A stretch of 46,749 bases of DNA from Oscillospiraceae bacterium. Lineage in GTDB: Bacteria; Bacillota; Clostridia; Oscillospirales; Oscillospiraceae. The position numbers were made by a program, and so were the translations under genes. Positions within the stretch are counted from its first letter, which is position 1. The number at the start of each line of letters is the position of its first letter. The stretch lies in contig WRMH01000020.1 in the NCBI GenBank assembly GCA_009777235.1, forward strand, positions 1 to 46,749. Direction: 5' to 3'. Shown here piece by piece: positions 11,229-29,363 of this stretch. The notes beneath the pieces are model-generated. The model was not told where the DNA came from. It searched no databases and saw nothing but the letters and a program-made list of their open reading frames with translations.

Positions 11229-11270
11229 ACCCTATAGGGTGTATCGGCAAATTTTTTATACGTCTAAAAT
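11229..11270 (+). promoter_or_regulatory. Activator-type promoter of the large adhesin gene (ACCCTATAGGGT box, site 1)
   Basis: Palindrome ACCCTATAGGGT at 11229-11240, continued by GTGTA, and a -10 box TAAAAT at 11265-11270. The distance from palindrome start to -10 is 36 bases, the same as at 21595 and 23861. No -35 consensus exists where it should be. The palindrome centre is at about -42.5 from the predicted start, the class II activator position. Confidence 0.75.
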
Positions 11271-11274
11271 ACAT

Positions 11275-11306
11275 ACATGAGCATTGGGTGAAAACCAATC
11301 TCATGT
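11275..11306 (+). promoter_or_regulatory. 5'-end stem-loop of the adhesin mRNA
   Basis: ACATGAGCATTGG pairs with CCAATCTCATGT (one bulged C), loop GTGAAAA. It begins at the predicted transcription start of site 1 and could protect the 5' end of the roughly 110-nt leader. Confidence 0.6.
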
Positions 11307-11384
11307 AAAAATCAACTGCCAGATAATTATACATTATGAATTATGAATTTATAGATTAGAAATTGTAAACCAGGAGACAAAATT

Positions 11385-14300
11385 ATGAAAACAATGATGA
11401 AAAGACCGAGTGTTTTCAATAAAGCACTATCCGTCATTCTTGTCATCGCCATAATACTCACAGCGCTTTCGCTCAGAATCGGCAAAACTTTGGCCAACCC
11501 GGCGGACGGCGCGGAAATCATCTCTTTTGAGCAGTCCGGCGTTGTTTTTGAAAAAACAGTCGAGCTTGCCACAGTTTGGGAAGATTTGGAGCTGCCGACG
11601 GAGCTGCGCGCGATTTTTGGCGCGGAAAGCAACGAGCCGGAGGAGAACGAACCTGATGGCCACGAGGCGGAGAGCGGCGAGCCGGAGGAGAATGAGCCTG
11701 ACGGCAACGAGGCGGAGAGCGGCGAGCCGGAGGAGACAGGACCTGACGGTAACGAGACAGAGAGCGGCGAGCCCGAGGAGAATGAGCCTGATATCCACGA
11801 GGCGGAGAGCGGCGAGCCCGAGGAGAATGAGCCGGAGGAAACAGAACCTGAAAAAGCTCAGACATTTGTCTTGAGTGTTCCCGTGACATGGGAGGGGCAG
11901 TATAACGGCGACGAGCCGGGAGTATACGTGCTCACTGCCAAAATCGAAGGCTACAGCTATAGCGGCGAGTTGCCGATTGCGATTATCACCGTGTCTGACA
12001 CAAGCCCTATCATGCAAAGCCCGCAAAGAAGCCCGCCGGGCACAGGCGTCACAGCAGACTATATAATTGACATAGGCGGCGGCAAGCAAGGGCAATCCCC
12101 ATACCCCGGCTATACAATATCAAACAGGGTTCTGGACTTTACCCAAGACGCAAGCGGCTTCGCTTATGAAATAATTCAGACAGCGGACACCGCGGGCTTT
12201 TGGACCTTCAATGTCCGCAATAATACGTCACTTACAATAATCCTCAGCGGACTCGGAAGCGGACACAAGATACCCGACATCTATTTTCATCTGCACGACA
12301 ACGCGGAAGTAAAGCTGTTTTTGTCGGGTGAAAACACAATAGGCAACGGATATTTCACCGTAAGAGAAAACACGAAGCTCACCATAGACAGCGCCCATTC
12401 TCCCGGAACAAAAAGCGAATCGGGCTCACTTACTATAACGAGCGACAGTTCCGGCTATGCGGCCATCGGAGGCCCAAGCGGTGCAAGCAGCGGTCTTATC
12501 ACAATAAACGGCGGTACGACGAACGCGATAAAGAAAATGCCGAGTCCCACCAGCACCGGCAAAGGCGCGGCAATCGGCGGAGGAGAAAGCGGCTCGGGTC
12601 ATGTCATAATAAACGGAGGCAAGGTTACAGCGACCATTCTAAACTCCGCAACCAGTAATAGATACGAAGCCGCCCTCATCGGCGGAGGAGGCTCCGGTCA
12701 TGGATATGTAACTATAAACGGCGGGACTGTGATCGCAAACGGTCATCCCACCAGCAATGGCGCGGCCATAGGCGGAGGCACGAGCGGCACGGGTAATGTT
12801 TTCATACACGGCGGGACTGTGATCGCGACTATTCCGAGCGGCGGTAATCCAAACGGCGGCACCACAGGCAACGGCGCTGCCATCGGAGGAGGTAGAGGAA
12901 GCGGCAGCGCTACAAGCGGTATCGGAAACGTAACTATCACGGGCGGGCATGTTATCGCAACAGGCAGAAACGGCGCCGCTATCGGAGGAGGTTTGCGCTC
13001 ATCAAACGCCACAATCAATATATCGGGCGGAATTATCGAGGCAACCACCACCCACGGAGAGGGCGCTGCCATCGGAGGCGGAGGCGGCGGAGTCGGGACA
13101 GACAAAGGCGTTATCGGCGGAAATCTCAGTATCACCATCAGCGGCGGAGTGCTCACTTTAAACGCCGAAGACGGAGCTGCCATAGGTCACGGCGGTTATG
13201 AAAGAGCAAGCGTATCCTCTCATGACGCGAAAACCAGCGGAACTTTGACCATTACAGGAGGGAAAATAACCGCAATAGTCAGACAAGGCAACGGCATAGG
13301 CACGGGCTGGGACAATAAACTTGTTCCCGAACTGCGAATTGATAAGGCCGCGGATATATTGGTATTCGGAAAAGAACGCACAGCCTACGCGGGTATTTAC
13401 GCGGGAGACAATAACGCGCAATACTTTGACGGTAAAAACCACGGCAGCGGGTACTATGTCAACTTGAATTTCCCACTCGCCGGCTCACCGATTGCGGCGG
13501 GCACTGTGTTTCTCGTCTATCTGAGAGACACGACGTCAAACCCGGTAAGAACTATAACCGCTCCTGTGGGTATCGGTATGCTCAGCTTCACTACAGGTGC
13601 CTCTAACCCTCAAGATTTCGATATATACATCAAAACCCCTGCGGGTGTACAGCAGCTCTCCCATCCGAGCAATCCCCGCCCAAATCCGCTCCCCAAACCC
13701 GAAAATGTGGTCTATAACGACACGCGTATCTATTCTGTAAACCGGACGTTTGACTATCATGAAAGCGAGCATGTACACGACACTTATTTTCGGTCTTTGC
13801 CTGTGAGGGTCGGCACGGGAGGAGGAACCGCTTACTATACGGTGGATGAAAAATACGTCAATCCGGCTGGCGAGTCCATTGGACTCGGCGACAGTTCCGC
13901 GCTCGTCGCGGCCGGCGGCACGTACAGCAAGACTGTGCTGCCCGAGCCCGCGGGCTATGCTTACAAAGGATATATCTGGGATATAAAGCCCACCGGAAAT
14001 GAACATATCAAGGGGGGGCTTCCTACAGATGAACCGATCTCGAGTGACAGGTTGATATATTTCGTCTACGATGTGTATGCGGAGGTAAATTTGACGGTCA
14101 GCAAGGAGGTTTCAGGCAGCTTTGCCGATAAATTAAAAGACTTTACATTCACAATTTACTTTACCGACAGCGACGATGCAAAGCTGCCGTCAGGCAAGAG
14201 CTTTAGCTATGACGGCGGTATGATCCCCGATTCGGGAGCAAAAGCGGCTCTTGGCGGTACTTTGACTCTGGGGCAAGGCGGATCGGATACGTTCACGCTA

Positions 14301-14633
14301 AAACACGGACAGACGATTACAATAAAAGACGTTCCCTCCGATGTTAAAATAAAAATCCTCGAGACAAAGAGCCTCGGCTACACGATGTCGTATACGGACA
14401 GCGCAAAGCCGGGCGGCTCGTATAAAAGCGATATGGAGTTTGACTTCGTGGGTATAAATGCGCGCAGATTTGATTTTCTAAACGCGGGTGATGAAATCGT
14501 TCCGACGGGCATTAGAGGCGATGGCCTGTCATTGATCTTGTTTTCATTGGCCGCCGCCGGACTTGTCCTCGCCGGCCTGATGGCGGCGGGATATGTCAAA
14601 AGAAGGTGCTCAAGAGGTTGCCTCAATCAATAA
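11385..14633 (+). CDS. Large wall-anchored adhesin with isopeptide pilin-type domain
   Basis: 1082 residues; ribosome site CAGGAGAC eight bases before ATG. The signal peptide is residues 1-36 (ending KTLA). Residues 45-210 look like a bacterial Ig-like domain (TVWEDLELPTELRAIF ... VPVTWEGQYNGDEPGVYVL) with four acidic 15-residue repeats inserted into it. Residues about 215-650 are Gly/Ser/Thr-rich beta-helix-like repeats built on INGG(K/T)V-A--G-AAIGGG. Residues about 905-1037 form a DUF7601/Spy0128-like domain (LTVSKEVSG ... IKILET ... FDFLNAG) with Lys, Glu and Asn placed for an internal isopeptide bond. The C-terminus is IVPTGI, a membrane segment and KRR, a sorting signal of PTG type instead of LPXTG. 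It is likely a surface adhesin or pilus tip. It is transcribed alone from an ACCCTATAGGGT-box promoter, apart from the pilus operon. Confidence 0.85.
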   Translation: MKTMMKRPSVFNKALSVILVIAIILTALSLRIGKTLANPADGAEIISFEQSGVVFEKTVELATVWEDLELPTELRAIFGAESNEPEENEPDGHEAESGEPEENEPDGNEAESGEPEETGPDGNETESGEPEENEPDIHEAESGEPEENEPEETEPEKAQTFVLSVPVTWEGQYNGDEPGVYVLTAKIEGYSYSGELPIAIITVSDTSPIMQSPQRSPPGTGVTADYIIDIGGGKQGQSPYPGYTISNRVLDFTQDASGFAYEIIQTADTAGFWTFNVRNNTSLTIILSGLGSGHKIPDIYFHLHDNAEVKLFLSGENTIGNGYFTVRENTKLTIDSAHSPGTKSESGSLTITSDSSGYAAIGGPSGASSGLITINGGTTNAIKKMPSPTSTGKGAAIGGGESGSGHVIINGGKVTATILNSATSNRYEAALIGGGGSGHGYVTINGGTVIANGHPTSNGAAIGGGTSGTGNVFIHGGTVIATIPSGGNPNGGTTGNGAAIGGGRGSGSATSGIGNVTITGGHVIATGRNGAAIGGGLRSSNATINISGGIIEATTTHGEGAAIGGGGGGVGTDKGVIGGNLSITISGGVLTLNAEDGAAIGHGGYERASVSSHDAKTSGTLTITGGKITAIVRQGNGIGTGWDNKLVPELRIDKAADILVFGKERTAYAGIYAGDNNAQYFDGKNHGSGYYVNLNFPLAGSPIAAGTVFLVYLRDTTSNPVRTITAPVGIGMLSFTTGASNPQDFDIYIKTPAGVQQLSHPSNPRPNPLPKPENVVYNDTRIYSVNRTFDYHESEHVHDTYFRSLPVRVGTGGGTAYYTVDEKYVNPAGESIGLGDSSALVAAGGTYSKTVLPEPAGYAYKGYIWDIKPTGNEHIKGGLPTDEPISSDRLIYFVYDVYAEVNLTVSKEVSGSFADKLKDFTFTIYFTDSDDAKLPSGKSFSYDGGMIPDSGAKAALGGTLTLGQGGSDTFTLKHGQTITIKDVPSDVKIKILETKSLGYTMSYTDSAKPGGSYKSDMEFDFVGINARRFDFLNAGDEIVPTGIRGDGLSLILFSLAAAGLVLAGLMAAGYVKRRCSRGCLNQ
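11658..11834 (+). repeat. Acidic 15-residue (45-bp) tandem repeats in the adhesin
   Basis: Four units of GNEAESGEPEENEPD type (residues 92-150), preceded by a partial unit and followed by EETEPE. The last full unit is one residue shorter. They are likely to vary in number between strains. Confidence 0.9.
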
Positions 14634-17017
14634 TCCACAGTCAAGGAGCGGTGTCCCGAAATAGTGACGGAGCTGTCTCCGACTATCGCTTCAAGCTCTT
14701 TGTCCGACAGATTCTTGATTTGCACAGATTTTTGATTTACCGTCACGGCGACAGGACAGTCTTTCCAGAAAATCTTAAATGAGATAGAGCCGATTTCTTT
14801 CGGCATACAGGGCTTAAAGGTCAAAACATCGGCGCCGAGCGCGTTTACCAAGCCCGCGAAACCATGTACGATTATCTGCCACATCCCGCCGATATTCGCA
14901 AAATGAACGCCCTCTGATGCCCGCGGCCTTGCTCCAAAGTCAATATCCATGGAATCCATCCAGTTTTTATAGGCATCCTCCGGCCGGTCAAGCCGCGCGG
15001 AAACGACGGCATTGTGGCATATTGAGTTTGACGAATCGTGAATGGTGAACGGGAAGTAATAGTCAACCGACGCGGCTATCTCTTCTTTGGTAAACGCTTC
15101 TGTGTAAAGCCCCATAAGCGCGACGACGTCAGACTGCTTGAGGCATTTTGAGCGGTAGCGCAGCTCCTGCGGCGCGTAAAAACCAAATAGCTTGGTTTTG
15201 TCTTTCCAAAGACCTTCGATGTCAAGCTCGGTATATGCCGTATCAAAACCGTCGCATTGCCAGATTATATTGCGCTTTGAGTCTTTTGGTATTGTCAGGC
15301 CGTCCGCGATTTCAGCCATAAGCCCGAGTTCTTTTTCGTCAAATTTTATCTTTTTGCAGAGCTTATCAAAAATTTGCGGAGCTTCGTTTTTGCACATTTG
15401 CGCTACGGTTCTTGCGAGCCTGAGATTTTCGCGGACGACAAAGTTTGTGTAAGCGTTATTGTTGGTGATGGGTTTGTATTCATCGGGTCCCATCACGCCG
15501 AGTATATGCCAGCCGCCGCGATGGGGAAGTTTGTTTGCCCGCCCGGTCCAGTAACGCGCCGTTTCGAGAATAATCTCCAAACCGTGATTGAAGAGGAAAT
15601 CTTTATCGAGCGTGTTTAAGTAGTAGTGCCACAGCCCGACGACGACATCCGCCGTAATATGAACCTGATGATCTGCATACTCAAACATCGGGCAAACTTC
15701 ATTGCCATAACGGTCTGTTTGCCACGGGTAGCGCGCGCCTTTATAGTTAAAGGATTTTGCGCTTTTGCGCGCGCCCTCGAGCATATGGTAGCGGTACATG
15801 GGGGTCATTTTGGCAAGCCCGGGCTGAGTGTAGATATAAAACGGCTGGAAGAAAATCTCCATATCCCAGCAAACCGAACCCAAGTACATCTCCGTAGTTG
15901 TGCCTTTGGCGCAGTTTAACGCGTGAAAATCCGTGCTTCTGGCGCGAAACAGATGATAAATGGCCTGTCTGATTGCGCGTTGGCTGTTGTATGGGGATTT
16001 GTCTTGCGCCTTTATTTGAATATCCGAGAAATCCCAGTTTTTTGCCCACCTTGCGATATGCTCTATGTGCAATGTTTCAAACCCGGCTGACGCGGCGGCG
16101 CTTATCTTTTTTATGCCCTCTTCGAGCAGATGTTCTCTGTCAAAATAGACATCAGCGATTTGCGCGGATATTTTGAGTATCTTCACTTCATCACGGTCCT
16201 TTGCGCAATCACCGCTTTGCAGATCAAACACAGTCTCCGAATAAACTTTACGTTCATGGCGCGTCGCCGTATACGTAAAATCATATTTATCGGCGGAGTT
16301 TTTTTCGCCGCATCCCGAAAAGGAGCAATCCATGCGGCTTACGGTCACTATTTTGTCGCCCAAATTTGCCGTGACGTCGCTGTAGATGATATTGCCGAAC
16401 TCTAAGACTCCCACTGTTCGGCTTATGAACTTGTCATGCCCGTTCGTGCGGACATCGTTATCAACATAGCTTTTTACTTTAACCCGCGCCTCCCCGCCGG
16501 ATATGAGGGTTATCTTGAGATGCTGGACACAGATAAATCTATCGTCGGGATTCATAAAGCGTGTAAAGAGCAGTTTTAATTTTTTACCGCGAGCTGTCTC
16601 CCAGACAAAACTGCGGTATAAGGTGGCCGTTTTCATGTTCAGCCAGCGTTTATAGTCCGTGATTTTACAGGTTTCCATGTTCAGTTTTTCGCCGTCTGAG
16701 TAAACTTCAAGACCCAAGTAATACGGAAGATTGACTATTCCTACGTTCCAGTGTGGATGCTTGCCCTGAACACGCTGGATAAATGTTCCCCAACGGCTTT
16801 TTTTGCACGGCACGACCTCGAGCGAAACATTCATTGCCAAGCGTTCATAGCTAATGTTCTGCTCATCGTCATAGAAGCCTTCCTCAAAGCCGGAGCGCGT
16901 GGTCATATAGCCCGTTCCGAGCGCCATAACCGACTCATTATGCCGCACACGCGTCACATCAAAGCTGTCTTCAATGACACACCAGTCAGGATCGATTTTG
17001 AAATTATCACCACTCAT
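14627..17017 (-). CDS. Glycoside hydrolase family 65 disaccharide phosphorylase
   Basis: 796 residues, cytoplasmic, the normal length of the family. The N-terminal beta-sandwich (1-270) is followed by the (alpha/alpha)6 barrel. GSVCWDMEIFFQPF (about 380-393) is the substrate-site signature, and the general acid is E513 in GPDEY, followed by NNNAYTNF. GH65 enzymes phosphorolyse alpha-linked disaccharides (maltose, trehalose, kojibiose, nigerose and others) with inversion to beta-glucose 1-phosphate; the linkage specificity is not readable here. It is the last gene of the sugar operon, 54 bases after pfkB. Its TGA overlaps the TAA of the convergent adhesin gene by seven bases, with no terminator between. 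The beta-phosphoglucomutase that usually accompanies this enzyme is not in the window. Confidence 0.9.
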   Translation of the reverse strand: MSGDNFKIDPDWCVIEDSFDVTRVRHNESVMALGTGYMTTRSGFEEGFYDDEQNISYERLAMNVSLEVVPCKKSRWGTFIQRVQGKHPHWNVGIVNLPYYLGLEVYSDGEKLNMETCKITDYKRWLNMKTATLYRSFVWETARGKKLKLLFTRFMNPDDRFICVQHLKITLISGGEARVKVKSYVDNDVRTNGHDKFISRTVGVLEFGNIIYSDVTANLGDKIVTVSRMDCSFSGCGEKNSADKYDFTYTATRHERKVYSETVFDLQSGDCAKDRDEVKILKISAQIADVYFDREHLLEEGIKKISAAASAGFETLHIEHIARWAKNWDFSDIQIKAQDKSPYNSQRAIRQAIYHLFRARSTDFHALNCAKGTTTEMYLGSVCWDMEIFFQPFYIYTQPGLAKMTPMYRYHMLEGARKSAKSFNYKGARYPWQTDRYGNEVCPMFEYADHQVHITADVVVGLWHYYLNTLDKDFLFNHGLEIILETARYWTGRANKLPHRGGWHILGVMGPDEYKPITNNNAYTNFVVRENLRLARTVAQMCKNEAPQIFDKLCKKIKFDEKELGLMAEIADGLTIPKDSKRNIIWQCDGFDTAYTELDIEGLWKDKTKLFGFYAPQELRYRSKCLKQSDVVALMGLYTEAFTKEEIAASVDYYFPFTIHDSSNSICHNAVVSARLDRPEDAYKNWMDSMDIDFGARPRASEGVHFANIGGMWQIIVHGFAGLVNALGADVLTFKPCMPKEIGSISFKIFWKDCPVAVTVNQKSVQIKNLSDKELEAIVGDSSVTISGHRSLTVDY

Positions 17018-17071
17018 TTTTATTTTCTCATTTCCATAACTCCCGCGAGCCGGTTTACAGTTATTTTGAGG

Positions 17072-17977
17072 TTAAACCGCATTGCTCCCGCCGGAATGTT
17101 TTTCTTTAATGCGAGTGAGCACATCTTCGTGCGTCGCGTTAAACGGGCCGTATGTTTCCATCTTTACGGAGACAAGGGCGGCGGCAAATTTTAAAGACTG
17201 TGCCGTATCGCGGCTGAGCCTTTCCGCCAAATAAGCCGCAAAAGTTGTGTCGCCGCGTCCCGTTCGCCCAATAACGCTGCTGTTTGAAAACTTTTCAAAG
17301 AAAAACGCTCCGCCCGCCCGCGCCAAAACTCCGTCCGAGCGTGTGATCATAATCTCGGGACAGCCCCATGATTCAACGATCAATGCCGCTTCTTCCAAAT
17401 CTTTTGTTCCCGTGAGGACTTCCGCTTCGACTACATCAAGTTTGACCATGGCCATTTTTGAGATTATTTCTTTTTTATCGGCAACATCGCCAAATCGGAT
17501 TTCTTTTGTGATTGGGGTTATCTGGCGAACATAGCTTTGCATATCGGTAGTAAGCCTGTGCCCTCTGGCTTTTAATCCGTCAATGAGCGCCATGTCAAAT
17601 TCGGAGTCGGAAATCCCTCCCAGATGAACATAAGCGGCCTCAAATTCGGGAACATCCTTTGTTTTGATGAGCCCCGCGGTTTTTATGAGGGTGATGTCCC
17701 GCTTATCAATATTATCTGATCTATGTGTCACGCGGGAATACGTCGTGACCGGCGCGGGTATTATAAAAACATCCACGCCCAAATCTCTCATCGGCGAAAC
17801 AATGTCTTCATCTTCAAGAGACATTTTTACCACGGCGGCTGTCTTGATTCCCAGACGTGCCGTCACCATCGCGCCGCAAAGCACTGCGCTCCCGGGCGCT
17901 ACTATGCTTTCACCGCCAAAATGATGCACTTCGTCAAACGCCATATTACCGACAAACACAATATCGTATTTTTTCAT
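17072..17977 (-). CDS. PfkB-family carbohydrate kinase
   Basis: 301 residues. The N-terminal motif is IVFVGNMAFDEVHHFGGE and the C-terminal ATP/catalytic motif is IGRTGRGDTTFAAYL, whose Asp is the catalytic base of the ribokinase fold. It phosphorylates a sugar or nucleoside; the substrate is unknown. Lying between the ABC permeases and GH65 in one operon, it probably phosphorylates a monosaccharide released from, or imported with, the operon's substrate. A strong ribosome site (GGCGGAGG, ten bases before ATG) is preceded by the hairpin leader shared with the pilus operon and the LuxR gene, so this gene has its own translation control inside the operon. Confidence 0.88.
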   Translation of the reverse strand: MKKYDIVFVGNMAFDEVHHFGGESIVAPGSAVLCGAMVTARLGIKTAAVVKMSLEDEDIVSPMRDLGVDVFIIPAPVTTYSRVTHRSDNIDKRDITLIKTAGLIKTKDVPEFEAAYVHLGGISDSEFDMALIDGLKARGHRLTTDMQSYVRQITPITKEIRFGDVADKKEIISKMAMVKLDVVEAEVLTGTKDLEEAALIVESWGCPEIMITRSDGVLARAGGAFFFEKFSNSSVIGRTGRGDTTFAAYLAERLSRDTAQSLKFAAALVSVKMETYGPFNATHEDVLTRIKEKHSGGSNAV

Positions 17978-17987
17978 AAAACATATT

Positions 17988-18018
17988 CCTCCGCCCTCTT
18001 CTTTTGAAGAGTTTTCTT
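17988..18018 (-). promoter_or_regulatory. Hairpin plus ribosome site leader, copy 1 (pfkB)
   Basis: On the minus strand: GAAAA, stem CTCTTC, loop AAAA, stem GAAGAG, then GGCGGAGG. It is almost identical to 21652-21679 and 29328-29355. The stem abuts the Shine-Dalgarno. Confidence 0.75.
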
Positions 18019-18088
18019 TAATTTGCTCGTGTTTTCACATGATTTTGATTTATCTTGAAAATTTTGATTTGAAATGTAGAGAGGGCGT

Positions 18089-18967
18089 TTAATTTTTTAT
18101 GCCCGACATGACTATACCCTCGACAAAAAAGCGTTGACCGAAAAGATAGACAATTACCGTCGGTAAAAACGTCAGGCAAGTCGCGGCAAACATTCCGGCA
18201 TAATCACTCTTGAATGAACCGAGAAAAGTGGTCAGTCCAAGCGTGAGGGTGTACATATCCTTATTTGAAATGTATATCATCTGTTGGAGCAAGTCATTCC
18301 AATTGGCGATGAATATTAAAAGCGCGACTACGATCACAGCGGGCTTTATCATCGGAAGTAAGACGGAAACCAAAATCCTTATATGACCCGCGCCATCTAT
18401 CATTGCCGCCTCGTCAAAATCCCTGGGAATGGACAGCATAAATTGCCGCAGCAGAAAAATATTGAACGCTCCCCCGCCAAAAAGAAACGGGATGATAAGA
18501 GGGTAATATGTCCCGACAAGGCCGAGCGTTGACCAGCCGATGTATAACGGAATGAGCGTCACCATAGACGGCAGAAGCATTGATCCGACACAGAGGGAGA
18601 AAATGAATTTCTTGCCTCTAAAGCGTAATCTGGCGAACGCGTAACCGCACATGATTGCGGTGGATGTGCCAAATACCACGCAGGGTACGACAATGATAAG
18701 CGTATTGCCCAGATACTTAAAAAAGTCAAAGGTCAGCGGATTGATGTCGTAATTTGACCATAGCCAGTCGGGAGGCAGCAGTACCGGAGGCCATCTGAAA
18801 ATATCCGAGCTTCTCATCAAAGACGAGCGAAATACATACCATAAAGGCATCATTACCAAAACAGCAAGGATTATTACAATGATAAGGCTGATTATGTCAA
18901 AAAACCTTTTCCGTAATTTTATTGATCTAAACGAGCCTTTTGGTATACCGCCTTTAAAGCCGCTCAT
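18089..18967 (-). CDS. ABC sugar transporter permease, MalG type
   Basis: 292 residues, six membrane segments. The EAA loop reads FDEAAMIDGAGHIRILVSVLLP, split around residues 190-211, the contact for the ATPase. It belongs to the carbohydrate uptake transporter-1 family. Its ATG overlaps the TGA of the MalF-type gene by four bases. No ATP-binding subunit is in the window, so a shared MsmK/UgpC-type ATPase elsewhere is expected. Confidence 0.92.
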   Translation of the reverse strand: MSGFKGGIPKGSFRSIKLRKRFFDIISLIIVIILAVLVMMPLWYVFRSSLMRSSDIFRWPPVLLPPDWLWSNYDINPLTFDFFKYLGNTLIIVVPCVVFGTSTAIMCGYAFARLRFRGKKFIFSLCVGSMLLPSMVTLIPLYIGWSTLGLVGTYYPLIIPFLFGGGAFNIFLLRQFMLSIPRDFDEAAMIDGAGHIRILVSVLLPMIKPAVIVVALLIFIANWNDLLQQMIYISNKDMYTLTLGLTTFLGSFKSDYAGMFAATCLTFLPTVIVYLFGQRFFVEGIVMSGIKN

Positions 18968-19914
18968 CTTCTCTCATCCTTTCCTTCGTAGAATATCCAT
19001 GCTTTTGATGTGGCAAACAAAATGAACGCAAGGATTGCCGCCACTATAAAGAAGATAAAGGCGATTGCCCCGGCTTTACCCAGCTCTCTTCCTCTAAATC
19101 CAATTTGATACATTAAGTATGACATGAACATTGTTGATTTTCCCGGTCCGCCTTTTGTGATAGCAAGCGCCGGTATGACGACTTGAATATTTATAACAAG
19201 GCTCATAAGCATATTATAAAAGATGATGGGCGTCATACATGGGATCGTGATATGTATAAAGCGTTTGATGAAATTAGCTCCGTCAATATCGGCGGCTTCG
19301 TGATACACCTTCGGTACATTTTGAAGCCCCGCAAGAAAAATAACGATCAAGTTGCCGCAAGACCAAACGGCGATCATCGTTAATGATTGCATTACAGTGT
19401 CCGAGCTGGACATAAAATAGGATTTATCAAAACCCATTTGCACAAGCAAGTAGTTGATTATGCCGCCGTCATAATTAAAGAGAAAATACCATGTTACCAT
19501 CGAGGCAGCGGCGGGTAATACATAGGGCACATAAAATACAGCCCGAAAGAAGCCCCTTGCCGGGATTTTGCGGTTTAGCAGCACGGCTATAAAAAAGGAG
19601 TAGACTATGCTGGCGAAAACTGCCATCAGAGCATAGGTCACGGTTACTGTGATAGAGTTGAGAAAGTCTATGCTCGGATTTTCGAAAATGTCAACGAAAT
19701 TATTAAGGCCGACAAACTCAGGCGAGCCGAGAGGGCTGTTTTGCACAAGATGACCGACATTCAGGTTGAAAAATCCCATGATAAAGGTGGTGAGCAGAGG
19801 TATGTAAGTAATCAGGGATAATCCAAGAAAGGCGGGGATCAAAAACAAGTAAGCCGCCCGCTCTTCTTTAATGGCATTTTCTGAATGTTTTTGCTTTCGC
19901 GTCAATTTAAGCAT
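18964..19914 (-). CDS. ABC sugar transporter permease, MalF type
   Basis: 316 residues, six membrane segments. The EAA motif is YHEAADIDGANFIKRFIHIT at about residue 210-230. It pairs with the MalG-type permease as the membrane channel for the binding protein encoded upstream. A stem-loop (20010-20048) lies between the binding-protein gene and this gene. Confidence 0.92.
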   Translation of the reverse strand: MLKLTRKQKHSENAIKEERAAYLFLIPAFLGLSLITYIPLLTTFIMGFFNLNVGHLVQNSPLGSPEFVGLNNFVDIFENPSIDFLNSITVTVTYALMAVFASIVYSFFIAVLLNRKIPARGFFRAVFYVPYVLPAAASMVTWYFLFNYDGGIINYLLVQMGFDKSYFMSSSDTVMQSLTMIAVWSCGNLIVIFLAGLQNVPKVYHEAADIDGANFIKRFIHITIPCMTPIIFYNMLMSLVINIQVVIPALAITKGGPGKSTMFMSYLMYQIGFRGRELGKAGAIAFIFFIVAAILAFILFATSKAWIFYEGKDERR

Positions 19915-20009
19915 TATACGTCTCTCTTCTACTATGGCAACCTCTTGAGCACCTTATCACGCCAATCTACCGGCGCTTTTTTAGGGAGAGCGGTTTATCA
20001 ATCGGATAA

Positions 20010-20048
20010 GGAGGTCTTCGTCGGCGCGGCATGTTAGAGAAGACCTCC
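20010..20048 (-). terminator. Intercistronic stem-loop between binding protein and permeases
   Basis: GGAGGTCTTC (20010-20019) and GAAGACCTCC (20039-20048) are perfect 10-bp arms with a 19-nt loop; flanking ATAA/TTAT can extend the stem. There is no T run, so it more likely stabilises the upstream message or partly attenuates transcription, as between malE and malF of other bacteria. Confidence 0.6.
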
Positions 20049-20078
20049 GTTATCACAAAAATCAGGGGGAGCGGGAGA

Positions 20079-21419
20079 CTATCCTGCCAGAGCGGCTTCC
20101 ATCGCGGGACGGATTGCTTCTATAACTTCTTTTGCGGTTTTGGAGCCTTGGAAAACCTCAACTAAAGCCGGCTGCAATACGCCGGTATACACTTCATATG
20201 TGTTTGGTGTGTAGTACCACGCCGTGGATTTTGTTATGTTTAAATCCATCGCGACGTCAACAATAGCTGTTTTATAGGCGTCTCCGAGCGGAACGCGGAC
20301 AGGGGACGCGTCAATCCATGCCGGCAGCTTCGCGTCATCATACCAGCTAAGCAGGTTTGGCATCCACCAGCCTTCGATAATCGGACCCATGTTGTTTTCG
20401 GGATCGTTGTACCATCTCAAAAAGGCCGCGGTTTCTTCCGGGTATTGGGTTGTGGCAAACATTGCGGCAGGGCCGGCTGTTGCTATGTTTGCTTTTTGCT
20501 TCATGTAGGGAAGTACGGCTACTTGATAATTTACGTCTTCAAAGAATCCTCTAAAGCCTGTGACCCATTGACCGTCCGTACCCATCGCCGTATCTCCTCT
20601 GCCGACAGACAAGAAGAATCCGTCGTCTACCGTTCCGTCGTTAAAGGGGGCTACTTTGTGTACTAAATGCAGGTCCGCAATCATTTGTATAGCTTCAATC
20701 GCGGCGTCGTCAAAGACAATAGATTTGCCGTCCTGTGAGAAGAAACGGCCGCCGTTTGACAGCGCAAAGGCTTCAAGCTGCCATGTGTAGGTGTTTACCG
20801 AGCCGCCGTATTGGACGATGTTGTTTGCGTCAAAGTCCGCGTCGTCGGGATTATTGCCGTTTGCGTCAAATGTGAGTGATTTGGCGACCGCGACAAACTC
20901 ATCCCAAGTCCACGCGTTTGCGCTCACCGCGGGAGGATATGCTACCCCTGCCGCGTCAAATATGTCGGGGTTGTACCATATCGCAAGCACTTCGTTGGCT
21001 GAGGAGTAAGCGACGGGCTCTCCTTCATTTTTGAAGATGACGTAGTCGAGGGGTTTTTCCGACGCTCCCGCATAGACGTCATAGGTGCTCAAAAGGCCAT
21101 CTCTTGCCCAGCCGATAGCGGTGTCCTCAGCGACCATGCCGCAGTCGGGCATTTCGTTGTTTGCCGCCATGACTTGAAGTCTTTCAACATAGTCGTCGCG
21201 GCCGATTTGCAGAGCGGTGACATAAACTTTGTCTTGCATATTGTTGTAGACGTCGAGGGCTGCTTGCGTCGTTTCCTGCTCCGCAGGGTCTCCCCACAGC
21301 GAGAACACAAGTTGGATAGGTCCGTCAGAAGCGGGGTCTGCTTTGTCGCCACATGCCGTGATAAGCGCGAAAAGCATAAGACTGGCGAGAATCAGCGCGA
21401 TATAACGTGATTTCTTCAT
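20079..21419 (-). CDS. Sugar ABC transporter solute-binding lipoprotein (family 1)
   Basis: 446 residues. The lipobox LITAC gives an acylated Cys23 after a typical signal peptide. The mature part is a family 1 extracellular binding protein, with IQLVFSLWGDPAEQETTQAA near the start and AWYYTPNTYEVYTGVLQPAL near the end. Ribosome site GGAGG precedes the ATG. It is first in the operon SBP, MalF, MalG, PfkB, GH65, which suggests uptake of a di- or oligosaccharide that GH65 then phosphorolyses. Expression comes from a consensus promoter overlapped by a LacI-type operator, so induction by its sugar is likely (inference). Confidence 0.93.
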   Translation of the reverse strand: MKKSRYIALILASLMLFALITACGDKADPASDGPIQLVFSLWGDPAEQETTQAALDVYNNMQDKVYVTALQIGRDDYVERLQVMAANNEMPDCGMVAEDTAIGWARDGLLSTYDVYAGASEKPLDYVIFKNEGEPVAYSSANEVLAIWYNPDIFDAAGVAYPPAVSANAWTWDEFVAVAKSLTFDANGNNPDDADFDANNIVQYGGSVNTYTWQLEAFALSNGGRFFSQDGKSIVFDDAAIEAIQMIADLHLVHKVAPFNDGTVDDGFFLSVGRGDTAMGTDGQWVTGFRGFFEDVNYQVAVLPYMKQKANIATAGPAAMFATTQYPEETAAFLRWYNDPENNMGPIIEGWWMPNLLSWYDDAKLPAWIDASPVRVPLGDAYKTAIVDVAMDLNITKSTAWYYTPNTYEVYTGVLQPALVEVFQGSKTAKEVIEAIRPAMEAALAG

Positions 21420-21520
21420 TTTGTTCCTCCATTTTTAAAATTTATTTTGATTGCGCGCGCCGCGCAAATGGACACGGTTTTAATCAAATCAATTGTGTTA
21501 GCCCCCGGCTTAAAAAATCC

Positions 21521-21536
21521 ATCTAAACGATTAGAT
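21521..21536 (-). promoter_or_regulatory. LacI-family type operator
   Basis: ATCTAAACGATTAGAT: perfect ATCTAA/TTAGAT arms around a central CG, the LacI/GalR operator pattern. It covers the start of the binding-protein transcript just downstream of the -10 box. No LacI-family gene is in the window. Confidence 0.65.
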
Positions 21537-21544
21537 TAAGTTTC

Positions 21545-21573
21545 ATTATAAATATATTATTGCCCTTTGTCAA
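21545..21573 (-). promoter_or_regulatory. Consensus promoter of the ABC/PfkB/GH65 operon
   Basis: On the minus strand TTGACA (21573-21568), 17-bp spacer, TATAAT (21550-21545): both hexamers perfect. It is divergent from the pilus-operon promoter, whose box lies 22 bases behind the -35. Confidence 0.9.
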
Positions 21574-21594
21574 CACTATATTTTCAAGAACTTT

Positions 21595-21636
21595 ACCCTA
21601 TAGGGTGTAGCGCGGGTTTTCTGCAAAGCGTAGAAT
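21595..21636 (+). promoter_or_regulatory. Activator-type promoter of the pilus operon (ACCCTATAGGGT box, site 2)
   Basis: Palindrome ACCCTATAGGGT (21595-21606) followed by GTGTAGCG, and a -10 TAGAAT at 21631-21636. The 36-base offset equals that of the other two sites. No -35 hexamer. Predicted start near 21643. Confidence 0.75.
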
Positions 21637-21651
21637 ACGGACAAATAAAAG

Positions 21652-21679
21652 AAAACTCTTCAAATGAAGAGGATGGAGG
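21652..21679 (+). promoter_or_regulatory. Hairpin plus ribosome site leader, copy 2 (pilus operon)
   Basis: AAAA, stem CTCTTC, loop AAAT, stem GAAGAG, then GATGGAGG eight bases before ATG 21688. It lies within about ten bases of the predicted 5' end of the operon mRNA. Confidence 0.75.
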
Positions 21680-21687
21680 TCATAAAA

Positions 21688-21828
21688 ATGGAACGGGCAA
21701 TTGAAGCGAGAATAACAGCGTTAAGGGAACTGCTCGAAGAAAAGCTCTCGCACAATCCGCACTCACAGGAGTATGTAGATTCCGTAGTGGAAAAGATATT
21801 TATGGATAACCAATTGGGCCTTGCGTAA
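21688..21828 (+). CDS. Small protein, first gene of the pilus operon
   Basis: 46 residues, starting MERAIEARITALRELLEEKL and ending VEKIFMDNQLGLA. It has an excellent ribosome site (GGAGG, eight bases) inside the shared hairpin leader, so it is very likely translated. It is predicted as two charged helices, with no signal peptide or membrane segment. A faint likeness to Spo0E-type small phosphatases (helix, HN-P turn, helix) is too weak to name it. Its place directly behind the regulated promoter and 50 bases before the SipA-like gene suggests a regulatory or chaperone role, or simply a leader function. Confidence 0.6.
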   Translation: MERAIEARITALRELLEEKLSHNPHSQEYVDSVVEKIFMDNQLGLA

Positions 21829-21878
21829 AGCCGTGATTTTCGATAAAGGGAACAAGCAAACATTTGAGGTAATTTTAT

Positions 21879-22619
21879 ATGGTTAAAACGATTGAAGAAT
21901 TAAACAGGGAGTTTGCATCGGCCAAAACACGGCTCGCGTCGGAAGCAAAGAAAAAAACAAAAAGCGCCGGGATGCCAAGCCAAAAACCAATGCGTGCCGA
22001 AGATACGATTTTGCAAGCCCAACGCGCTGAGATACCAAACCAAGCGGCAGCGAGCACCGAAGAGCAGGAAACAAAAAATCAGGCGAAAAACGCCAAAGAA
22101 ATGAGCGCGAAAAAATCCCGCAAAGGCGGAGTTGGCAAAGAACTCCTTTTGCTTGGGTTTAAAATCGCTTTGCTGGCATCCTCTGCGGCGGTCGTTTTGA
22201 CATTTTTGTTCGGATTTGCGCGAATGGGCGACCCGGCAATGGACCCCGCCATAAAGGACGGCGACTTGGTTTTATTCCACCGATATACAAAGGCGGGATA
22301 TTTGCCCGGTGATGTTATCGCTTTTTCCATAGACGATTCGGTTCAGATAAGGCGCGTCACCGCGACAGCCGGAGATACTGTTGATATTGAAGACGGACGC
22401 CTTGTGATAAACGGATCGCCGCAGCAAGAGCTGGGTATTTACCAAAATACGGACAGATACGAGCAGGGGGTGAGCTTTCCTCTCACCGTACCCTCCGGGC
22501 AAATATTTGTCTTGGGCGATAACAGGGCAGGGTCTACCGACAGCCGAATCTACGGCTGCATTGAGATAGATGATACGCTCGGCAAGGTGATGACGATACT
22601 TCGCCGAAGAGGAATCTGA
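21879..22619 (+). CDS. Catalytically inactive signal peptidase I homologue (SipA-like pilus factor)
   Basis: 246 residues. Residues 1-85 are a charged cytoplasmic, probably coiled-coil extension; residues about 88-110 form one membrane segment; the rest is the S26 signal peptidase fold. The catalytic-Ser motif (normally G-SM-P) reads GDPAMDP, with Ala at 120 where the nucleophile should be. The general-base Lys motif (IKR in active enzymes) reads QIRRV, with Arg at 158. The structural box VLGDNRAGSTDSRIYG (201-216) is intact. Loss of both dyad residues with a preserved fold is what is known for SipA of streptococcal pilus islands, which acts as a pilus assembly chaperone. GAGG precedes the ATG. 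It is followed after 32 bases by the sortase-peptidase fusion. Confidence 0.85.
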   Translation: MVKTIEELNREFASAKTRLASEAKKKTKSAGMPSQKPMRAEDTILQAQRAEIPNQAAASTEEQETKNQAKNAKEMSAKKSRKGGVGKELLLLGFKIALLASSAAVVLTFLFGFARMGDPAMDPAIKDGDLVLFHRYTKAGYLPGDVIAFSIDDSVQIRRVTATAGDTVDIEDGRLVINGSPQQELGIYQNTDRYEQGVSFPLTVPSGQIFVLGDNRAGSTDSRIYGCIEIDDTLGKVMTILRRRGI

Positions 22620-22651
22620 TATAAGGAATACAGCACAAGGAGGTATGGCTA

Positions 22652-23869
22652 ATGAAGTCAAAATCAGTAAAAGCGATAAAAGGCATTAACGGCATAATCA
22701 ATTATGCCGTGCTCATCGTTGTAATATTGCTCTTTTTATTCGCGGCCTATGCCTTATGGGATTCAAATCAATTGTACGCGGGCGCGGACAAAAGCAACTA
22801 CTCCGTATATAAGCCCACGCCGGAGGATCAGGGAAAATCGTTTGCCGAGCTTGTGGCAATCAACCCGGAGGTGTTCGCGTGGCTGACCGTATACGGGACA
22901 AGCATAGATTACCCCGTGACGCAAGGGCCGGACAACATGAAATATGTAAACACAAGCGCCGAGGGACGATATTCGCTCTCCGGGGCTATTTTCTTGGACT
23001 CGCGCAATAGTAAGGATTTTAGCGATTTCAACAGCATAATCTACGGCCATCATATGGCAAAAAATGTTATGTTTGGCGAAATTGACGACTTTCGCGATAA
23101 GGAAAAATTCGAGGCGCATAGATACGGGAGCATTTACTATGACGGACAGTATCATCAAATTGAGTTTTTTGCCTTTCTCCACACGGATGCTTATGACGGG
23201 GAAGTATTTTCCGCAAACGTAAACGAATCGGAGCGCGGGCGGTATCTTGAAAGTATTTTCGCGAAATCCTTACATATAAGGGATATCGGCGTTACAACAA
23301 ACGACCGTATCATATTGCTCAGTACCTGTTCTGCCGATTCAACGAACGGGCGCGATATTTTGGCGGGAATAATAACAGACGAGCCGCATACCCAGTTTCG
23401 CGAGGACGTCAAAGACGAAGGCTCGGACAATAGCTCAAAGACCACAAGAGTAACTTTGTCAAACTATTCCTTTTTTACCGTGCTGACGACCAGTATGCAA
23501 AAAGAAATACCGCAAGGCTCTTTGATAGTTACGGTTCGCACAGACCCGGCAAAGCTTCAAATCGGAGATAACATTACATTCATGAAAGACTATAACACGG
23601 CTATAACTCATAAAATCACAGATATTTATGAAAACCATCAAAACAGCTCGCAAAGAGGCTTTCAGACCAAAGGGACGGATAATGACCGCCCTGACGAGCA
23701 TATAGTTTTGGAGATGAGCGTAGTCGGAAAAGTCGTACTCGTAATTCCGGCGGCGGGAGCTGTCATGGAATTTATCGCAAAAAATCTGCTCCTGTTTGCG
23801 GCGGCAATCATTTTTGGCGTGATCGCCACTATTTTGATAAAGAAAAAGGCACGGAAAAATACCCGATAG
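22652..23869 (+). CDS. Class B sortase fused to a SipW-type signal peptidase
   Basis: 405 residues. Residues 15-38 form a membrane anchor. Residues 60-245 are a class B sortase: WLTVYGTSIDYPVTQG, catalytic His133 in IYGHHM, Cys226 in LLSTCS and Arg234 in NGRDI. Residues 270-365 are a signal peptidase of the SipW/ER type: TVLTTSMQKEIPQGSLI with Ser281, GDNITFM, catalytic His320 in TAITHKI, GFQTKGTDNDRPD and VVGKVVLVIP. A second membrane segment (about 375-395) and a Lys/Arg tail close it. Both active sites look complete, so one protein could cleave signal peptides and attach or polymerise pilins. Ribosome site AAGGAGG. The stop codon lies inside the palindrome of the next promoter. The usual Gly before the Ser (SGSM) is Thr here. 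Confidence 0.88.
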   Translation: MKSKSVKAIKGINGIINYAVLIVVILLFLFAAYALWDSNQLYAGADKSNYSVYKPTPEDQGKSFAELVAINPEVFAWLTVYGTSIDYPVTQGPDNMKYVNTSAEGRYSLSGAIFLDSRNSKDFSDFNSIIYGHHMAKNVMFGEIDDFRDKEKFEAHRYGSIYYDGQYHQIEFFAFLHTDAYDGEVFSANVNESERGRYLESIFAKSLHIRDIGVTTNDRIILLSTCSADSTNGRDILAGIITDEPHTQFREDVKDEGSDNSSKTTRVTLSNYSFFTVLTTSMQKEIPQGSLIVTVRTDPAKLQIGDNITFMKDYNTAITHKITDIYENHQNSSQRGFQTKGTDNDRPDEHIVLEMSVVGKVVLVIPAAGAVMEFIAKNLLLFAAAIIFGVIATILIKKKARKNTR

Positions 23870-23902
23870 GGTGTAGCGGCGATTTTTTGACAAAACTAAA
23901 AT
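23861..23902 (+). promoter_or_regulatory. Activator-type promoter of the main pilin gene (ACCCGATAGGGT box, site 3)
   Basis: ACCCGATAGGGT (23861-23872, one mismatch from the other sites) followed by GTGTAGCGG, and a -10 TAAAAT at 23897-23902, again 36 bases from the box start. It overlaps the TAG of the sortase fusion gene. The leader to ATG 24037 is about 130 nt, A-rich and G-poor, with a small hairpin GGAAG-ATA-CTTCC before AAGGAG. Confidence 0.75.
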
Positions 23903-24036: not shown

Positions 24037-25422
24037 ATGACTACAGTGCACAGAAAAGGATTAAAAATCATGGGGAGCATAGCCATAGCCGCTTTAATGC
24101 TGCTTAGTATGCTCACCACAGCTCTCGCAAAAGATTATTCGGAGGGCTTTGACGCGGACAATCAGGCAAAGGCTTCAATCACAAAAGTCTTCGCCATGCC
24201 GAAAGGCACCACCACACCCGCGGTGACATTCACATTTACTTTCACACCGCTCGGTATGAAGGTGAGCGGAGTTACGGGAACTGATACGACGGGAATTCCG
24301 GCCATCGGACCGAAAACCGTCACATTTACAAGAGGCGAAGAACCCGATGAGAACACCGGGGGCCTGACGTATATAGATGACAAGGACGGCACAAAATACG
24401 TCATAAAAGAAACCGACGACTTCATTGCACATCTTACACCGGCGAGCTTTGCGACAAACGGAGCGGGCATCTATGTCTACCTTGTAGAGGAGACCTATGG
24501 AGGACAAACTATTGTCAGCGCGGATGAAAAAGAGAAAACTTATTACTCATCGGCAAAATACCTCCTGGAGGTTTGGGTAAGCGTGGATGAAGACGGTAAA
24601 CTCTACGTGCAATACGTCAGCCCAATCACCATCAAAGAGTATCTCGATGTCTATTACGAGGGCACCGAGGGCGGCGACAAGATTGACCCCACGCCGGGCG
24701 AATGGAGAACCAAGCCGTATGAAACCCTCAAAGACGGCTTCTCGCAGCTAATCTTTACAAATAAATATTGGAAAACTGACGGCGAAGACCCCGGCAAAAC
24801 CGCTCTTGAGATTATAAAAGAGGTTGACGGTAACGACGGTGAACACGGCAAATATTTTACCTTTAATGTAAAGGTCATTCAACCTGCCGTCATACCGCTT
24901 GACCCTGACAATCCCGTATTTGAAACTTACCGCGCATACGTGGTTGATACTGACGGAACAATCGTAAAAGCCGTAAATAATGAGTATCATAACGGCACGA
25001 TTTCAGGCACGGATGCGCACGGAGATTATTATATCTTCACATCTGATACAACAAAGACGGTGCTTCTAAAGCACAACCAAAAACTCATCTTTGTTGATTT
25101 GCATGTAGGCGCTGACGTGGAAGTGACCGAAACCGGCGACAAGGATTACAAGCCGGCATATAAACACTTCCTCAGCCTCGACACATATCCCGGAACTATC
25201 GGCGCTGCTTGGGGATTTCCGCTAAATCCCGACGATGACGACCCTCACTACCTGCCGGAGGGCACAAACCAAAACGAGGTTACGTTTACAAACACCCGTA
25301 CAGGCGCGACTCCGACGGGAATCAGCGTTGACGACCTTCCATACTTCACACTCATTGGCTTGGGCGCGGCGGGTTTTGTAGGCTTTTTGGCGGTAAAGCT
25401 CCGCAAAGGCAAAGACACATAA
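24037..25422 (+). CDS. Major pilin-like surface protein with PTG sorting signal
   Basis: 461 residues; AAGGAG precedes the ATG. The signal peptide is residues 1-31 (ending TALAK). It has two Spy0128-like/DUF7601 pilin domains. The first covers about 40-250 (ASITKVFAMP ... YLVEETYGG ... LIFTNKYW) and the second about 255-425 (ALEIIKEVDG ... VEVTETGD ... VTFTNTRTG). Each has Lys on the first strand, Glu in the middle and Asn on the last strand, the arrangement of intramolecular isopeptide bonds. The C-terminus is ATPTGI, a 20-residue membrane segment and KLRKGKDT: the same PTGI motif as the large adhesin, not LPXTG. It is likely the polymerised shaft pilin. It has its own box-type promoter inside the operon, so it can be made in excess of the enzymes. 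Confidence 0.87.
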   Translation: MTTVHRKGLKIMGSIAIAALMLLSMLTTALAKDYSEGFDADNQAKASITKVFAMPKGTTTPAVTFTFTFTPLGMKVSGVTGTDTTGIPAIGPKTVTFTRGEEPDENTGGLTYIDDKDGTKYVIKETDDFIAHLTPASFATNGAGIYVYLVEETYGGQTIVSADEKEKTYYSSAKYLLEVWVSVDEDGKLYVQYVSPITIKEYLDVYYEGTEGGDKIDPTPGEWRTKPYETLKDGFSQLIFTNKYWKTDGEDPGKTALEIIKEVDGNDGEHGKYFTFNVKVIQPAVIPLDPDNPVFETYRAYVVDTDGTIVKAVNNEYHNGTISGTDAHGDYYIFTSDTTKTVLLKHNQKLIFVDLHVGADVEVTETGDKDYKPAYKHFLSLDTYPGTIGAAWGFPLNPDDDDPHYLPEGTNQNEVTFTNTRTGATPTGISVDDLPYFTLIGLGAAGFVGFLAVKLRKGKDT

Positions 25423-25560: not shown

Positions 25561-26322
25561 ATGAACAAAGCAGCGATGAAAAAAAAGTTAATAATATTCA
25601 TAGCCGCGGCGCTTTGGGCAATGATAGGCATCACCGCATCAATCGCAAATGCTGCGGACGGCGAAGTCAATCTGACAGTCAAGCAAATCTATAATATATC
25701 GGATAATGAACATGATGATACCGCCGAGTACATATTCAAAGCGTTAAAAGCAGGCAATCCAATGCCCTTTGCGGCAAACGGGAAAGACGAATTCAGCTTT
25801 ACGATAAAAGGCAGCCAAAGCATAAATATAGGGCCGATCATCTTCACCAATCCGGGCATATACCGATACGAAATATCACTCAAAACAGAAATTGACACGG
25901 CCGTATGGCGCGTTTACCTTATTGAAGTACATGTAGACAGCGAGCTAAACGCTTATGTCATAGTCTATTATGAAAACGGGGCTAAGGCGGATGAGATACT
26001 GTTTATCTACGGCTTTGATCCCACCCCCGCGCCGACCGACCCCACGCCAAACCCGCCGGGCACCCCCGACCCCCACGAAACCCCAGACCCGTACAGGCCG
26101 CCCGTTTCACCCACCCCCGACGGGCATGACATCGAGTACAGACCATATCCGCCGGACACGCCGTCCCCGCCCGGAGGCGACGGGCCAAAGACGGGAGACA
26201 ACAGCAATACATTGCAAAACACTATCTTATTATGCGCGGGCGCGGCGTTGGTTCTTGGGGCAATCATAATCCTCGCGGCGGATAAAAAAGCCAAAAGAAA
26301 GCAAAAAAGGAGAAGACAATGA
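25561..26322 (+). CDS. Small pilin-like protein with GPKTG sorting signal
   Basis: 253 residues. The signal peptide is about 1-30 (SIANAAD). Residues 33-160 form one Spy0128-like domain (VNLTVKQIYN ... IYRYEISLK ... DEILFIYGFDP). The strand that normally ends in F-N carries FIYGF, so the isopeptide Asn seems to be missing. Residues about 163-214 are a Pro-rich wall-spanning region with several Pro-Pro and Thr-Pro steps. The C-terminus is GPKTGDN, a membrane segment and a strongly basic tail, close to the PPKTG type of sorting signal and different from the PTGI of its neighbours. It is likely the basal pilin that anchors the fibre. The ribosome site is weak, and its TGA overlaps the ATG of the next sortase by four bases. 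Confidence 0.82.
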   Translation: MNKAAMKKKLIIFIAAALWAMIGITASIANAADGEVNLTVKQIYNISDNEHDDTAEYIFKALKAGNPMPFAANGKDEFSFTIKGSQSINIGPIIFTNPGIYRYEISLKTEIDTAVWRVYLIEVHVDSELNAYVIVYYENGAKADEILFIYGFDPTPAPTDPTPNPPGTPDPHETPDPYRPPVSPTPDGHDIEYRPYPPDTPSPPGGDGPKTGDNSNTLQNTILLCAGAALVLGAIIILAADKKAKRKQKRRRQ

Positions 26323-29355: not shown

Positions 29356-29363
29356 TTACTTAG

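Follow-up and report, generated by a model that had tools for sequence, protein, structure and literature searches.

Here we describe a putative operator and its proposed regulator in a stretch of 46,749 nucleotides from an Oscillospiraceae bacterium (contig WRMH01000020.1 of assembly GCA_009777235.1), which was analyzed as a whole and is called the window. A short palindromic sequence, which we call the box, is located upstream of three sets of genes for surface structures, and each copy is followed at a fixed distance by a -10 promoter element. A gene for a protein with a GerE/LuxR DNA-binding domain, LuxR-A, is located nearby, and we propose that its product acts on the boxes. The boxes, the genes behind them and the regulator are as follows.

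11229..11243, plus strand: box P1, ACCCTATAGGGTGTA, upstream of the large adhesin gene (from the pattern search and the consensus of 40 boxes).
11265..11270, plus strand: -10 element of P1, TAAAAT.
11385..14633, plus strand: target of P1, a large surface adhesin or pilus ancillary-like protein of 1082 amino acids (Pfam DUF7601, 3.2e-20).
21595..21609, plus strand: box P2, ACCCTATAGGGTGTA, upstream of the pilus operon.
21631..21636, plus strand: -10 element of P2, TAGAAT.
21879..22619, plus strand: signal peptidase I-like protein of the pilus operon (Pfam and NCBIfam profiles).
22652..23869, plus strand: class B sortase fused to a signal-peptidase-like domain (TIGR03064 at residues 12-236 and TIGR02228 at residues 270-395, both above cut-off).
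23861..23875, plus strand: box P3, ACCCGATAGGGTGTA, whose initial 9 nucleotides are the end of the sortase gene, including its TAG stop codon.
23897..23902, plus strand: -10 element of P3, TAAAAT.
24037..25422, plus strand: target of P3, the main pilin, of 461 amino acids (DUF7601; C-terminal TPTGI sorting-like signal, seen by eye).
29364..31937, plus strand: LuxR-A, a predicted MalT-type STAND regulator and the proposed activator (Walker A motif at about residues 38-45, MalT-like TPR region, GerE domain at residues 796-850).

The palindrome is exact at 11229 and 21595 and has one mismatch at 23861, always on the plus strand, and the first base of the -10 element is located exactly 36 nucleotides past the start of the box at P1, P2 and P3. 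Because box P3 overlaps the last nine coding bases of the sortase gene, stop codon included, P3 appears to be a promoter within the pilus cluster. The initial annotation had noticed that three promoters share a palindrome at the same offset and that no other copy was visible in the window; both observations hold. When the 12-mer palindrome was searched with up to two mismatches, its only three matches in the window were the three boxes. However, shuffles gave a mean of 0.70 matches, and 4 of 100 shuffles reached at least three, so the 12-mer alone is only mildly unusual. The composite of box and -10 element, ACCC-N4-GGGTGTA-N21-TANAAT, has three exact matches in the window. With up to three mismatches allowed, it has five (the three boxes and two sites with three mismatches), compared with a shuffle mean of 0.16, and none of the 100 shuffles reached five. 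Inspection of the flanks of the three boxes by eye revealed nothing in common beyond the box and a T-rich spacer. A logo of 40 boxes shows that more than the palindrome is conserved: a T-rich stretch comes first, then ACCC, four bases that are mostly A or T, GGGTGTAG and finally a TANAAT-like -10 element.

A genome-wide search, which the initial annotation had suggested, was run over the 2,626,098 bases (58 contigs, 92% complete) of the genome that contains the window. The core ACCC-N4-GGGTGTA proved rare, with five copies, namely the three boxes and two copies inside open reading frames (ORFs). The latter, at 13635 in the adhesin gene and on contig C2, lack a -10 element at the offset. No further box with a -10 element was found by this core search of the 92% complete genome, in keeping with the proposal of a small regulon of three promoters (of the adhesin, the pilus operon and the main pilin). 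The pattern ACCCNATAGGGTGTA, with up to two mismatches, has seven matches in the genome: the three boxes, the reverse readings of two boxes, and two other sites with two mismatches each. Because a backward control pattern has 11 matches under the same conditions, only exact genome matches carry weight.

The protein encoded at 29364-31937 contains all three parts expected of MalT-type STAND/LAL regulators: a STAND module, a TPR/SUPR sensor and a C-terminal GerE domain. The GerE domain matches PF00196 at residues 796-850 with 37.6 bits (cut-off 23.5). In the Walker A motif, G41-Y-G-K-T45 is invariant in eight of eight members, and G.GKT is present in 18 of 18 full-length LuxR-A sequences. Residues 21-377 match MalT (8bob) by sequence in a PDB search (E 5.5e-16), and 8bob is also the best fold match (E 1.2e-9), at a low template modelling score (TM-score) of 0.45 by target and with a structural model of moderate confidence (mean predicted local distance difference test, pLDDT, 67.7). 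TPR_MalT is matched at E of at most 0.001 in eight of eight members. Since the window protein scores 27.7, under the gathering score of 45, support for the TPR region rests on the family and on the helical model. The NCBIfam equivalog cut-off for MalT is missed (167.8 versus 537 bits), and a Pfam scan of the window protein gave no match to a Response_reg (receiver) domain or to an autoinducer-binding domain. LuxR-A is thus predicted to be a MalT-type STAND regulator and not a MalT orthologue. We apply the name LuxR-A to close orthologues, which have 43-64% identity to the window protein over 20 aligned copies (three incomplete) and number 23 copies by our own tally; LuxR-B denotes paralogues at about 24-36% identity. 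In a midpoint-rooted tree of 29 of 31 rows (two short or distant rows were left out), the LuxR-A sequences group in a single clade with full support, separate from LuxR-B.

The distribution of the box follows that of LuxR-A. Of 19 genomes from the genus, 11 encode the regulator; it is also present in two members of a sister genus, G027 and G230, and in G366, which belongs to a different family. Within the genus, a box with its -10 element is present in 10 of the 11 LuxR-A genomes versus none of the other eight (Fisher p 1.2e-4). In a sample of 300 genomes of the family, a box with TANAAT occurs in all six genomes that encode LuxR-A versus none of the 294 others; with the looser -10 pattern TANNNT, 11 genomes carry it, comprising the six with LuxR-A and five of the 294 without. 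None of the nine genomes in this sample that encode LuxR-B only has a box with TANAAT, and two genomes with LuxR-B and without LuxR-A (G018 and G052) lack a box with a -10 element.

A scan of 84,980 species used the strict pattern, including the -10 element, and took no account of the regulator; the window's own genome was possibly left out. It identified 21 stretches in 15 genomes, 14 of which encode LuxR-A (two as incomplete copies, besides the cut copy of G001). The exception, from Halomonas, has only a weak partial match, and a few chance hits are expected by a rough estimate. By record name, the 14 genomes comprise 12 Oscillospiraceae, one Defluviitaleaceae and one Turicibacter. The bin prefixes Th196, Lab288, Emb289 and Co191 match sample codes of a study of higher-termite guts (PMC7024585). 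In G366, which was found later by protein search, luxR-A is followed just downstream by two boxes, one exact and one with one mismatch, both with TAAAAT at N21 (that is, after a spacer of 21 nucleotides). The pairing of box and LuxR-A is kept in G366 as well as in the Turicibacter record. A search of viruses in IMG/VR gave no matches to the box.

The box is also often located beside the regulator gene. In 14 of the 23 copies, the luxR-A stop codon is followed by an exact box core at a distance of 72-239 bp. Versions with one mismatch are located downstream of luxR-A in G015 and G366, and G010 has an altered box there. In the Turicibacter record, a box is also found upstream of luxR itself, which suggests feedback in that organism.

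That LuxR-A itself reads the box is best supported by a matched change of box and GerE domain in G010, the only genome of the genus that encodes LuxR-A yet has no canonical box with a -10 element. Downstream of its luxR-A is the sequence ACAGTTTCCTGTGTA-N21-TAAAAT. The core, altered symmetrically to ACAG-N4-CTGTGTA, occurs five times in G010, each time with TAAAAT at N21, whereas in 18 copies from 26 other genomes TANAAT is never found at N20 or N21, and the looser TANNNT is found in two (Fisher p 3e-5). Within the G010 stretches examined, five of five sites with AG arms have a -10 element, compared with none of one site with CC arms. In the GerE region (residues 790-857), the G010 protein carries I816M, R820H, K828N and Y835F at positions that do not vary among the 20 other copies; such changes number at most two in any other LuxR-A copy and are absent from most. 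Residue 828 is in a modelled helix (824-839, moderate confidence) and aligns with the K of TVK in VraR and also with a DNA-contacting lysine of NarL. Judged from these sequences, G010 appears to be a natural example of regulator-operator coevolution that switched specificity. Its five sites and four otherwise invariant residues make it a testable case of a GerE regulator and its operators changing specificity in nature. A WxL-like motif is present at the C-terminus of two G010 targets, and a WxL-interacting protein gene is behind a third box. As regards symmetric arm variants, TANAAT at N20 or N21 accompanies no arms other than CC and AG among the loci gathered, and this survey is weak because the loci were gathered largely by CC and AG patterns.

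These observations bear on whether the box is bound instead by a different regulator, for example an unlinked protein or a paralogue of the LuxR-B group, that was inherited along with LuxR-A. LuxR-A is tied to the box only by sequence correlation, other regulators were not surveyed, and in G003 it is LuxR-B, not LuxR-A, that adjoins a boxed pilus cluster. However, boxes with -10 elements are absent from G018, G052 and the nine LuxR-B-only genomes of the family sample; 14 relatives have a box immediately past luxR-A; the box switch in G010 coincides with changes in the DNA-binding domain of LuxR-A; and the LuxR-A-box pairing is retained in G366 and in the Turicibacter record. We therefore regard another regulator as unlikely and favor LuxR-A, the protein that the initial annotation had named as the likely activator.

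The spacing between box and -10 element was evaluated on an unselected set, consisting of all 59 core matches in 30 genomes that were chosen by LuxR-A status, with no -10 element required. In the 19 LuxR-A genomes, TANAAT is at N20 or N21 in 29 of 50 cores (two sites being counted on both strands) and at another offset between 10 and 44 in three; the looser TANNNT is present in 39 of the 50. In the 11 genomes without LuxR-A, none of nine cores has TANAAT at N20 or N21. The logo of 40 boxes, which come from 18 genomes, omits 10 of the 50 cores, namely six other cores inside ORFs and four more (a G003 site on both strands, a G005 site read in reverse, and G357:C5, where no -10 element is found at the offset). 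Its -10 columns are therefore selected, and the unselected counts are those over all 50 cores. In the logo, the -10 element was assigned at N21 in 30 boxes, at N20 in eight and at N23 in two, and the right half-site, the longer of the two, overlaps the -35 region. As previously noted for the window, a -35 consensus is missing: the best match to TTGACA at a spacing of 16-18 is two of six positions in 26 of the 40 boxes, three in 12 and four in two, which is no better than random.

The center of the box is 30.5 nucleotides ahead of the first base of the -10 element, and so would be at about -42.5 if that base is -12 (the +1 position is predicted). This agrees with the position proposed in the initial annotation, and is that of class II sites, whose centers are near -41.5 or -42.5 and which replace the -35 element. 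We predict that the boxed promoters are raised by class II contact between activator and RNA polymerase. Taken together, the data make it very probable that LuxR-A binds the boxes at about -42.5 and activates a small surface-adhesion regulon as a class II activator.

It is improbable, in our view, that LuxR-A binds the box and represses, or that it both represses and activates. The right half-site reaches the -35 region in the logo, so binding could block RNA polymerase in another state of the protein. Nevertheless, the targets lack a -35 element and such promoters need help, not blocking; the -10 element is at N20 or N21 in 29 of 50 cores and elsewhere in only three, a tight spacing of the kind that activators need; and MalT is an activator (PMC4381067). 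A very remote alternative is that the box is a core promoter element of an alternative sigma factor. Fixed -10 spacing without a -35 element would fit such a factor, and sigma factors were not searched for, but the inverted repeat near -42.5, the TANAAT-like -10 element and a distribution that tracks a GerE-domain protein all speak against it. Chance, or a duplicated promoter segment without regulatory meaning, could account for a 12-mer that is only mildly rare at two mismatches, but is refuted by recurrence in other genomes and by the G010 sites, besides the composite level that 100 shuffles did not reach and the flanks that are alike only in box and T-rich spacer, and we assign it practically no weight.

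Activation by LuxR-A could proceed in the following manner. A signal would bind the TPR sensor, whereupon LuxR-A would exchange nucleotide and multimerize as MalT does. The C-terminal GerE domains would then bind the inverted repeat ACCC-N4-GGGTGTA as a dimer. Located at about -42.5, the repeat would replace the -35 element, and the activator would contact RNA polymerase at the TANAAT -10 element. As a result, the large adhesin would be switched on jointly with the pilus assembly operon, which encodes the signal peptidase and sortase, and the second promoter inside the cluster (P3) would supply extra main pilin. The sequences themselves show the boxes and how rare they are, the constant spacing without a -35 element, the co-distribution with LuxR-A, the genes behind the boxes of relatives and the parallel change in G010; direct binding, activation rather than repression, the signal and multimerization are what we infer.

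The genes behind the boxes are mostly consistent with a role in surface display. Among the 40 boxes from relatives and the window, 25 by our own tally have a gene for a DUF7601 adhesin, signal peptidase, pilin, sortase or similar surface protein among the first ORFs. These include a Turicibacter protein with a Pectate_lyase_5 adhesive domain. One box of G230 is followed by an Rrf2 regulator gene and then by an adhesin gene. Because the other 15 boxes are without a clear surface target, the regulon would serve mainly, and not only, surface display. In two relatives, G005 and G011 (L183:5285-7081 and L184:4635-6416), the box downstream of luxR-A precedes a gene for a methyl-accepting chemotaxis protein, and the best -10 element at these boxes is shifted or weaker (N23 TAATA, or CATAAT at N21).

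Several observations weigh against activation of a surface regulon by LuxR-A. The 15 boxes without a clear surface gene are followed by genes for methyl-accepting chemotaxis proteins (G005 and G011), a LytTR response regulator (G356), a histidine kinase (G352), a zinc-ribbon protein (G005) and luxR itself (G357), or are unclear or at contig ends (nine boxes). The luxR-A copies of the window, G003, G006a, G001 and G011b have no box just downstream, and a second copy in G015 runs off its contig. The boxed pilus cluster of G003 that adjoins LuxR-B (contig C8, about 74-88 kb; L043 and L175) is more than 50 kb from LuxR-A. Three of the eight genus genomes scored as lacking LuxR-A are less than 80% complete. 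Moreover, the co-occurrence is not phylogenetically independent, as most cases come from one genus and one habitat type; because the genomes are relatives and neighbors, the distribution counts are not independent events. The switch in G010 is a single event, and the number of altered cores in that genome (five) is unremarkable compared with a backward control (four), so that only the -10 element sets these sites apart.

A broader hypothesis, which we consider evenly balanced between right and wrong, is that a MalT-type STAND protein, together with a palindromic class II operator of its own, constitutes a transferable and self-contained module. This module would be common to termite-gut Bacillota of several families, including the Defluviitaleaceae and Turicibacter records, and would be wired to local surface display (sortase pili, large adhesins or WxL-like proteins); one lineage would have rewritten its operators and DNA-binding domain together.

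Similarities to known systems help to place LuxR-A. MalT of Escherichia coli also has a Walker A nucleotide-binding module, a TPR-type sensor and a C-terminal GerE/LuxR domain. MalT boxes are short asymmetric sites in several copies, whereas LuxR-A would use one inverted repeat at about -42.5, and its targets are adhesins and pili. An inducer that binds the TPR sensor activates MalT, which then multimerizes and occupies its boxes cooperatively (PMC4381067). The box also resembles sites of NarL, a member of the same GerE superfamily. An engineered NarL 7-2-7 site, TACCCCTAAAGGGGTA, has the same layout as the box, with C-runs and G-runs around four A/T-rich bases, and the napF and yeaR sites are at -40 to -49 and -38 to -47 (PMC4549865). 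LuxR-A differs from NarL in that no receiver domain was matched and in the extended right half of its site, and its control logic is different. With the quorum-sensing LuxR, LuxR-A shares the GerE domain, an inverted repeat and the class II position, but no autoinducer-binding domain was matched. The lux box, an inverted repeat at about -42.5 in class II promoters, differs from the ACCC-N4-GGGTGTA box in sequence and length. Streptococcal pilus loci of the FCT type, like the present cluster, have a signal-peptidase-like protein, a class B sortase, a major pilin and an ancillary-like adhesin near each other. Their regulators, RofA/Nra and MsmR, belong to families other than the MalT type.

What is new here is the measured rarity of the box, the link between regulator and box across genomes, and the natural switch in G010. 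For a MalT-type STAND regulator of uncultured gut Bacillota, this work provides a putative operator and putative targets, and makes the protein a candidate master switch for attachment. The search pattern is simple and highly specific, and predicts new genes under the same control. No description of such a regulon was found among the literature matches listed for LuxR/MalT with sortase pili or for GGGTGTA with LuxR, all in open-licence papers. The exact 12-mer was likewise not found in the open-licence literature, which does not show its absence from print.

Additional features of the region are listed below.

21688..21828, plus strand: small ORF of 46 amino acids, the first past P2, without a Pfam match.
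25561..26322, plus strand: further protein of the pilus cluster, without a Pfam match (weak match, under cut-off, to a sortase-dependent surface protein family).
26319..27122, plus strand: second sortase, class B-like (143 bits, just under the cut-off of 153.75; Pfam Sortase above cut-off).
28684..28712, plus strand: sigma-A-like promoter, TTGACA-17-TTAAAT, before the DivIVA-luxR gene pair.
28799..29299, plus strand: gene for a DivIVA-domain protein, directly upstream of luxR.

The luxR-A gene is 2.2 kb beyond the pilus cluster and behind the DivIVA-domain gene. Unlike the three box targets, this gene pair has a promoter with a good -35 element. The P1 adhesin also matches NCBIfam pilus_ancill_1 (4.7e-9, under its cut-off), and has a signal peptide-like start and, as seen by eye, a C-terminal VPTGI sorting-like signal. 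The second half of the sortase fusion protein (22652-23869) corresponds to a separate ORF in G001. Scanning of 16 LuxR-B loci for a LuxR-B box, in the form of palindromes at the same offset, yielded two sites with unrelated arms and the G003 box, and no LuxR-B operator was identified.

A strong hairpin is predicted at 11275-11310, the expected 5' end of the P1 transcript (-16.1 kcal/mol in a fold of 70 nucleotides), and is not found behind the other boxes. When the 5' regions past the boxes were folded and compared by eye, no common RNA structure was apparent. A leader with a hairpin and a ribosome-binding site, CTCTTCAAANGAAGAGGATGGAGGT, precedes the first ORF of P2 (21656-21680, plus strand) and luxR (29332-29356, plus strand). 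It recurs with three mismatches at 17987-18011 (minus strand), before the gene at 17072-17977 (minus strand), and a fourth copy is on another contig. This leader was considered as a part of the regulon and rejected, given that it is present in 4 of 120 loci, all from the window's own genome, and it was judged to be a local ribosome-binding-site feature.

The intergenic region of P2 also contains a perfect promoter, TTGACA-17-TATAAT, at 21573-21545 on the minus strand, which faces a gene for a solute-binding protein (20079-21419). By arithmetic, box P2 would be at about -62.5 relative to this promoter, a class I position. The solute-binding-protein gene is followed by genes for two permeases (BPD_transp_1), a PfkB-type kinase and a GH65 enzyme, and sugar uptake may be linked to the regulon. 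Near the end of the window, at 42000-46289, the G+C content falls to 0.31-0.41 over a PDDEXK-type transposase-family gene and a GHKL-domain kinase/response-regulator pair, and this segment was likely acquired.

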